Assembly: GCA_022829145.1 (NCBI GenBank)
Contig: CM040749.1
Coordinates: 20,173,987-20,237,986, forward strand
Origin: Albula goreensis
Lineage: Eukaryota > Chordata > Actinopteri > Albuliformes > Albulidae
Length of the DNA stretch: 64,000 nt
Reading direction: 5' to 3'
This document shows positions 28,001-31,000 of the stretch, in pieces. The notes under the pieces are model-generated. The model was not told where the DNA came from. It did no database searches and worked only from the letters and a program-made list of their open reading frames with translations. Numbering within the stretch: the stretch's first letter is position 1; the number at the start of each line of letters is the position of its first letter. The position numbers and the translations under genes are program-made.

Positions 28001-31000
28001 TCGCCATCCAATCTGACGATTTTGGCATTAATCTCTGTCTGATTATATCAGATTCACCCCCAAAATGCTTCATTACCATGATGGGATGGGTATCTCTCCC
28101 TCTCTATTGGGAAGTCCATCGGCTTTCCTTTTTCCCTGTAGGAAATCCTAACACCCTCCATAAGTAGATCCTAACTCGACAACTTTGTCTGTGAAGTTGG
28201 TCTGCCTTTTTTGTTTGCATAATATCTTATTTTCTTCACATTGTCTTGACATGTATTTTTTCTGTTCTCTCTTAAATGACAACACTGTACTTCCCTTCAG
28301 GCACAAAAATAACAATTACTTCCTGAACGCCTACCGACACTTTTGGCTGGAAAAAATGCATGAGAACACAGACTATGACAGTCTGCTCTCCATGCTAACG
28401 GTAATGTAAGACTGACAGAGCTGACGTCTTTGACTCCTTCCCTCCCAACCATAGTTTTTATTGTAACTCATACGGTGCTCCCACTGAGAATCTGATTGGT
28501 CAGCCGGTGGGCAAAAGGGCGGTCTCTTGCTTTGGTTGAGTTTGAGGTCAAAAAGTTCCTTGTTCTTCCAATACCCTTTTTTTGGAGATGCCTTAAACTA
28601 CTCATTGTTGCATTCTGGTGTTGTGCCATTAATATCATTATCTAGCATCATAATTAACCACTATTTTGACATTTTCATGTTTTCTAAACTTTGAAAATTC
28701 AATGATTTACATTTAAACATAAATTTCCCCACTTCAAATGAACAGTACCCAATGTATTGTTTTTTAATTCAGAATATTTTCAATGGCCTTTCATTTACAG
28801 ATCATTCTGGGACATGTAGTTTTTACACCCTGATGTGAAACAGATTCCATATATATATTATACATATATACACACACTCACAGATCTTACTCAGGTTCTC
28901 ATAATTACTGAATGAGACAGCTGTAGAAGCTATCACTTTTAATTTGTATCTAATCAGTTATTTTTTTTTCGAAATGAGTTAGCCACACTGTTGTCAAGAG
29001 AATTCTTTGTCATGGAACACAATGAAATTTCATGTCCTTCTCAGGGTGACCAGTTAGATGAGTCAGTGCCTCCACACTAACAATTAACAGCTTTGGTTCA
29101 GCCCCTCCTGTTCCAACTCCCCTCCCCCTCGTCTACTTCTTCCTTCCTCCTTCCATCCTGTTAACCCTTCCTAATCTCGCTCTCCCCCCTCCTCAGGCAT
29201 CGCTCTATTAACCTCTTCCTCATGGGCTATCAGAGAATTTGGATAGAGACAGAGACGTACTCCTTTGAGGAGAGGCTAGTGCAGGACCTGGCAGTAAGTA
29301 CTGGCCCCGCGGCACTGGCCTCTGTGCATTGTGGTCGGCCGTTGCCGCTGAACGCTTCGCAAGCACAATTCCCGCCTAGCCGCGAGAAACGCATCACCCC
29401 TGCCCCTTCGTCCGCTTGGTGTCTCCGTCATTCGTGTTCTGCTCCAGCTCGTGTCGCACATTGCCAACAGACGTCCACCCAGGGTGGGTGTGCCATTTCC
29501 CACAGTGTCAGCGCAAACAGTGCCCTCACTATGAGAGCGGCCCATCCTCTCTGTGGTAAGAGAGTATCCGCCCAGATGCTCTGCTTCACTGTGGAAATTT
29601 ATGGAAGGTGTAGTCTCTTTCGTAAATTTGTTTTTACAGCATCAGATGATCATTCTCACATCATGTAGGAAAAAAACATACAGCTTAATGATTATTTTTT
29701 ATTCTCTGGAATAAAGAGAGCAGTCTGTACCATTACAGGCACAAGTGATATACCTTTTAGAGCTGTGCCTGTACCTTAAAAAGAATTCCTGTAACAAAAA
29801 AGTGTCACAGTTTGGATTTGTTCACAATAATCCACATTGAATCAATTATTGATGTTGACAGAATATGTTAATGCTGATATTTCTAATAGTGTAGCTTGGA
29901 ATATTCTGGTATGTTTCCAATATAATAAAAGAATGTGAGACCACATAGATGTCATTTGTTACTGTAACTTCCCCATCCTACATGAATGGAGGTGAAGTGG
30001 TACAGTAATGATAGACTCATGAAGTCATGCTTCATAACTGCCATCATCCTTTTTAACTACTGTACACACAAACACTAAAGCTGCCTTGCCATCTGAATGT
30101 CTGTGTGTTATTGTGTGTGTGTATATATACGCATGCTTTTCTGATGCAAGAGTATTCTGTCCGTAGTATACAATCCAACATCATAGAGTATGCCATCAAG
30201 GACCCATAGCACTTGTGTGACAAGGTCATCTCAGTGTGTTTGTACATTGTGCATTTACTTTCAATTTATTTTTGTAAATGTAGTAGACCTGCATGTGGTA
30301 AAGGTAAGTGATTTCCAAATGATTTTTATGTCCAATGAAGTCAGTAATTCCACAAAAATAGGAAAAAAACAATTTTTGGGATTTTTTCATGAACAAAAAC
30401 CTGTAAGGGTCTTCCAGAAGAAATCTTAATGCCAGACTTGATGTATACCAGACTTGATGAAGTCACTACAAAACAGATTGAAACAAATTTTTATTTGTTT
30501 GTCATATTTTTGTAATAGTGAAGTATATGGGCATGCCACAAGCTAAAATATATTTTTGAGGATATTACTCTTATGGATGCTTTTGCTTGATTTGTTTTGT
30601 TCAATCTAACTGTGAGAGACTGATGTAGATAGGTGTTGGTACTTGGTTTGACGGTTTTCATTGGCTGGATGTGGGGCCATGCATGAAGGTGCCGTCCTGC
30701 TAACTACTCTGGGTTTCTGTGTAGAAGATCCAAATGAAGGTGGAAGAGGAGGAAGAAGAGGAAGCAGAGGTCCAACCGGACCCACTTCATCAACTCATCC
30801 TGCATTTCAGTCACAACGCGCTCACAGAACGGAGGTGAGAGAATTGAGTGGAAACACCTGCATACATACACATACAGTCTCATACACATTCACACATACT
30901 CACATATTGGCATTTACACTCACTCACACACACACCATACCTGGTGTTAACATTGCAGTATCCATCTGTACACAGGAACTCTCTTGATATGCCCCTTGGC

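Follow-up and report, generated by a model that had tools for sequence, protein, structure and literature searches.

Work by Marziali in 1996 is said to have described alternatively spliced, tissue-specific transcripts of mammalian RYR3, and Leeb and Brenig in 1998 reportedly described alternatively spliced RyR3 transcripts; judged by the titles, the feature these studies have in common with the locus presented here is alternative splicing of the mammalian gene. A 2022 study (Martinez-Gomez et al.; PMC9741552) places RYR3 in its list of families that show tandem duplicated exon substitutions across vertebrates, arthropods and nematodes; its 236 curated human events likewise consist of homologous neighbouring exons used as alternatives. 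The relevant passages of that paper name no RYR3 exons and mention no fish tandem donor; the listed RYR3 event is presumably the exon pair e36a/e36b that we describe below. Another ryanodine receptor is known to use mutually exclusive exons: in Bactrocera dorsalis, the choice between exons a and b varies with developmental stage and body part (PMC3989282). This insect event (ASI) is a different one: its a/b exons fall within the second SPRY domain, at residues 1135-1165, at a distance from the calmodulin site. The existence of the vertebrate pair is not new: it is ancient and already annotated in proteins, and it extends beyond fishes to a frog and to reptiles, birds and mammals. The initial annotation of this DNA, which took the pair to be undescribed in vertebrate RYR3, has to give way on this point, both to those annotated proteins and, if our identification of the event is right, to the published list. 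Searches of open-licence papers found no description of the function of the pair, and the terms RYR3, RYR and ryanodine are absent from the main texts of PMC4465641 and PMC5740500. The present analysis adds a tandem donor through which both exons could be included in frame, shows that the four other RyR loci in the same genome lack e36a, and identifies the solved RyR3 as the e36a form.

The window, by which we mean the whole stretch of 64,000 nucleotides of Albula goreensis that was analysed (C9:20173987-20237986), carries the exons of an ryr3 gene; its closest relatives are RYR3 proteins, neither RYR1 nor RYR2, in agreement with the initial assignment. The best match of the spliced e35-e36a-e37 peptide is the Megalops cyprinoides record 'ryanodine receptor 3-like isoform X4' (P0001; 228 bits, 100% identity over 107 aa). 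When the ryr3 exons of the window were compared with P0001 and the stretches filtered at 88% identity, 38 stretches were kept that are 89-100% identical, including one of 438 residues at 92.9%.

The four exons described here, the 5-nt extension of e36a and the pyrimidine-rich stretch before e36b lie on the + strand of the window. The calmodulin-binding exon e35 (27137..27249, 113 nt), whose frame and boundaries are present in the sequence, matches the calmodulin-peptide structures of RyR1/RyR2 (2bcx_B, 6y4o_B, 6xxf), which bears out the placement of the pair directly after the calmodulin-binding exon. It ends in a split Arg codon (AG|). Downstream lie e36a (28301..28400, 100 nt when its first donor, GTAATG, is used), to which Megalops P0001 is identical across the exon, and, after a gap of 796 nt, e36b (29197..29293, 97 nt), a type that RyR1 and RyR2 have as well. 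The flanks of e36a are ...CTTCCCTTCAG on the 5' side and CTAACG|GTAATG on the 3' side, those of e36b ...CCCCCCTCCTCAG and CTGGCA|GTAAGT. Each exon completes the AGG (Arg) codon and exits in phase 0 towards a common 3' partner, the acidic-linker exon e37 (30725..30834, 110 nt), and both e35-e36a-e37 and e35-e36b-e37 give an open frame through e37. By alignment, the exchanged segment corresponds to RyR1 3646-3678 (5037-residue numbering), flanked by the calmodulin peptide on one side and the acidic linker on the other; the earlier estimate of about 3645-3677 had the right segment with a one-residue shift. On re-checking, the coordinates and lengths of the two exons, the gap between them, their phases and the stop codons of the faulty joins all proved exact.

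These faulty joins are of two kinds. A transcript that splices e36a to e36b from the donor after 28400 reads ...SMLT ASLY stop, and one that skips both exons by joining e35 directly to e37 reads ...PRRSK stop. The claim that exactly one of the two exons must be used holds for both cases and is nevertheless too strong, because the 3' end of e36a carries tandem donors 5 nt apart (ACG|GTAAT|GTAAGA, 28401-28411). Donor 1 leaves e36a in frame with e37 and out of frame with e36b; donor 2 (GTAAGA at 28406, last exonic base 28405) would add a 5-nt extension (28401..28405) that makes e36a 105 nt long and brings e36b into frame, open through e37. As read from the sequence, the frame discourages, without forbidding, the use of both exons. 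On a simple donor matrix, e36a donor 1 scores 1.1, the +5 donor 3.3, e36b 2.1 and e35 0.0, against a median of 3.5 for the 27 donors of the gene resolvable by an approximate method, six of which are weaker than e36a donor 1. The 'good splice sites' first credited to both exons are therefore only partly true of e36a.

A tandem donor of this kind could let the gene choose among three outcomes, e36a, e36b, or both in frame (a+b), the double form lengthening the region behind the calmodulin site by about 35 residues. Besides the higher score of the +5 donor, gene models from Metynnis (P0042), Coregonus (P0045) and Coryphaenoides (P0057) share a T-V-M/T-H-R join of the extended e36a to e36b, which implies the same tandem donor in those fishes. 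These three models, however, are named only 'hypothetical protein' and resemble automatic predictions, two further fish gene models (P0070 and P0095) join the region otherwise, and among the 139 proteins typed below (best matches listed), a clean a+b join is absent from every one that is named as an isoform of a ryanodine receptor. The five fish models may reflect faulty annotation or may hint at double inclusion, and we regard a regular three-way choice as improbable. P0070 and P0095 mix e36a and e36b by joins of other kinds.

The preferred reading of the locus as an either-or pair draws on the distribution of e36a among vertebrates. A protein search with the spliced e35-e36a-e37 peptide yielded 1887 proteins with E <= 0.001 out of 1944 candidates, and the best 120 of these were typed; a search with the e36a of a frog matched 27 out of 28 candidates and contributed 19 new proteins, for 139 in all. 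A third protein search, run with a strict word filter, found 2 proteins from 2 candidates. Among the 139 (the best 120 of 1887 plus the 19), 110 have e36a, 25 have e36b and 4 have both, numbers that are not frequencies, since e36a proteins head the lists and a species may be represented by several isoforms. The protein database is clustered at 90% identity, so that one splice form can mask the other and absence means little. One of the 139, P0095, is an irregular mixture of exons; with it and six other irregular proteins (P0042, P0045, P0057, P0070, P0129, P0139) set aside, the unique segments number 33 for e36a and 7 for e36b.

The e36a type is found in teleosts (in records named ryr3 and ryr3-like), in the bichir Polypterus, in the frog Ascaphus, in four birds (two pigeons, a crow and the zebra finch), in the Komodo monitor, an alligator and a crocodile, and in four marsupials (Gracilinanus, Monodelphis, Notamacropus and Macrotis). 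It is therefore present in RYR3 proteins from fishes to mammals, which answers the doubt whether related species have an e36a-like exon at all. Fishes and mammals are separated by several hundred million years. Compared with the e36a of the window, Megalops is identical at 34/34 positions; four further teleost records named ryr3-like or ryr3 match at 30-33/34, Polypterus at 24/34, the frog at 22/34, six amniotes at 18-19/34 and percomorph 'ryr3' at 19/34, whereas e36b is 20/33 identical even to RyR2. To judge from these comparisons, in which most of the e36a proteins are predicted isoforms, e36a is clearly conserved, yet less so across species than e36b. The initial annotation saw e36b as the form of mammals and e36a as a divergent version; some mammalian RYR3 sequences carry the e36b type, but marsupial RYR3 and the RyR3 chain in the PDB carry e36a, and the division is not supported.

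Two fishes allow both forms to be compared with the window. In Paramormyrops, 33/34 residues of e36a and 32/33 of e36b are identical to the window, and in Sparus aurata 30/34 and 29/33, near-equal values that suggest that both exons are held about equally there. The e36a-form and e36b-form proteins are 99.7% identical in Paramormyrops (2964 aa) and 97.5% identical in Sparus (4881 columns), and the two forms thus look like products of one gene in both species. The 60 residues upstream of the exon are identical between the forms in Sparus; in Paramormyrops they agree at 37/60 by position, and the two records of that species differ upstream of the exon too.

The products of e36a and e36b are homologous, as had been proposed, and somewhat more alike than the 'about a quarter identical' first reported: 10/34 aligned residues (29%) are identical. 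Aligned globally with BLOSUM62 they score 42, whereas 2000 shuffles of e36a average -15.7 (SD 8.6) and reach 18 at most, so that the likeness is not a product of chance. A core pattern of an Asn, Phe-Leu, an aromatic residue, a Trp and a late Leu is kept by e36a, while RYR3 e36b together with RyR1 and RyR2 keep HR, N, F, Y, WI, FE and DL. Within the unique e36a segments, R1, F8, L9, L17, L29 and T34 are invariant and W16 varies once. The net charge is -2 to +4 for e36a, -2 to -1 for RYR3 e36b and -4 for RyR1 and RyR2; the swap is therefore not marked by a fixed charge difference. When the window was searched with five e36 peptides for a third exon copy, no match other than e36a and e36b had an E below 0.06. 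A search against plasmids gave no match and is without relevance to the pair.

The greatest divergence between e36a and e36b lies in their second halves, and this bears on another possible role of the pair, in which both protein forms work alike and the exons mainly set the amount of functional RyR3 mRNA through joins that end in a stop. Skipping both exons, or joining them through donor 1, does lead to an early stop, as such a role would have it; that each type is distinct, conserved within itself and different in its second half would be unneeded for quantity control alone. We find this role hard to credit as the main one.

The genome (931.9 Mb in 208 contigs) holds a single match to the e36a peptide of the window, which is e36a itself. 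An e35-like exon occurs at five loci: the window, a second ryr3-like locus (C7, 95% identical to the e35 of the window), a ryr2-like locus (C19, 89%) and two ryr1-like loci (C2 and C11, both 78%). An e36b-type exon follows e35 by about 130 nt at C2, 170 nt at C11 and 90 nt at C19; the e36 segment is 75% (C2) and 72% (C11) identical to that of RyR1, and at C19 it is identical to that of RyR2 (33/33). Queries for e36a over 9.7 kb at each of these three loci matched only the e36b-type exon, apart from one extra match at chance level at C11 (E 0.19).

The C7 locus (C7:9698700-9708400, minus strand) is 95%, 82% and 86% identical to the window in e35, e36b and e37. Its e35-e36b intron, of about 1.46 kb and free of N, contains no recognisable relic of e36a, the best sense score being 29 against 34 for the antisense control. 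An e36a-like exon, sought at the other ryr1, ryr2 and ryr3 loci of this genome, was thus found at none of the four, each of which has an e36b-type exon. In other teleosts, e36a is present in both types of ryr3, whereas here it is absent from C7. Since percomorph ryr3 records with a C7-like e37 (P0052-P0056) have e36a, loss in C7 is the simplest reading. With the orthology of C7 and the percomorph genes assessed on no more than a few residues of e37, this looks like a lineage-specific loss after gene duplication. Together with the greater variability of e36a across species, its absence from C7 suggests that the exon is dispensable. We give almost no credence to e36a being a dead or unused copy, intact only in appearance, and reject this on conservation: its donor 1 is weaker than most (6/27 resolved donors are weaker) and the second ryr3 copy lacks it, but e36a is open, in the same phase and recognisable from fishes to mammals, a single e36a sequence recurs in 23 percomorph ryr3 entries and a one-residue variant in six more (several entries per species), the PDB chain from an RyR3 construct contains the type, and C7, with nothing recognisable left, displays the outcome without constraint, if the exon was ever present there.

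The only RyR3 chain found in the PDB (9c1e/9c1f), which we take to be that of mink, carries the e36a type, with the segment HKINNFFLSTFQRVWLEKVNEKTQYDRLIPILM. Chain 9c1e scores 173.8 bits with the e36a query, as the best of 42 distinct sequences, versus 153.7 bits with the e36b query, and a PDB search with its own segment returns 9c1e at E 5.9e-34 and the next chains, named 'Ryanodine Receptor' or RyR1, only from 6.9e-10. The RyR3 of 9c1e/9c1f (Chen et al., 2024) shares the type of the window exon and differs from it in sequence, with 17/34 residues identical. The form that the initial annotation took as new is therefore the form of the solved RyR3. Because the RyR1 and RyR2 structures have the e36b type, differences between these structures and RyR3 could stem from the splice form and not from the gene. 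An AlphaFold2 model of the isolated e36a peptide, run on the single sequence with no alignment and no e36b control, gives one helix over residues 2-33 (mean pLDDT 78), weak support for the peptide being helical.

Taken together, the observation made on this DNA is confirmed and the interpretation first given to it partly supported. There is little doubt, from the comparisons above, that e36a and e36b are an ancient tandem-duplicated RYR3 exon pair, probably spliced as alternatives. That the swap alters Ca2+/calmodulin gating, a proposal suggested by its position, we hold to be an even bet. The best explanation overall, and very likely the correct one, is an ancient either-or exon switch in RYR3 behind the calmodulin site, with a possible effect on gating. 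The mRNA would normally take e36a or e36b, exchanging 33-34 residues between e35 and e37, and wrong joins would end in stop codons. The e36b type is common to RyR1, RyR2 and RyR3, and e36a is a diverged version found only in RYR3 proteins; the albulid would probably make both forms. The same helix, in the same place, may present a changed surface next to bound calmodulin, and changed contacts with calmodulin or with the solenoid could in turn change the coupling of Ca2+/calmodulin to gating. Lying between the calmodulin site and the core of the channel, retained from fishes to mammals and found only in RYR3, the pair offers a handle on what distinguishes RyR3 from RyR1 and RyR2. A bolder extension, which we consider unlikely, is that RYR3 alone gained a calmodulin-adjacent splice switch before the diversification of bony vertebrates, that a 5-nt tandem donor shared by teleosts makes it three-way (a, b, a+b), and that part of the supposedly RyR3-specific structure or calmodulin response may be specific to e36a.

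Splicing factors may choose between the exons by acting on two features, a weak donor at e36a and an acceptor at e36b that is rich in pyrimidines. In the 100 nt before each exon, C+T content is 84% for e36b (29097..29196), 71% for e36a, 56% for e35 and 51% for e37. The combination of a weak e36a donor 1 with this e36b acceptor suggests that e36b would be the default and e36a the regulated choice. Raw counts of TGCATG, with no shuffle or conservation control, are one in the e35-e36a intron, zero between the two exons and two in the e36b-e37 intron. A branch-point-like ACTAAC lies at 29076-29081, about 120 nt 5' of e36b, with AG dinucleotides in between.
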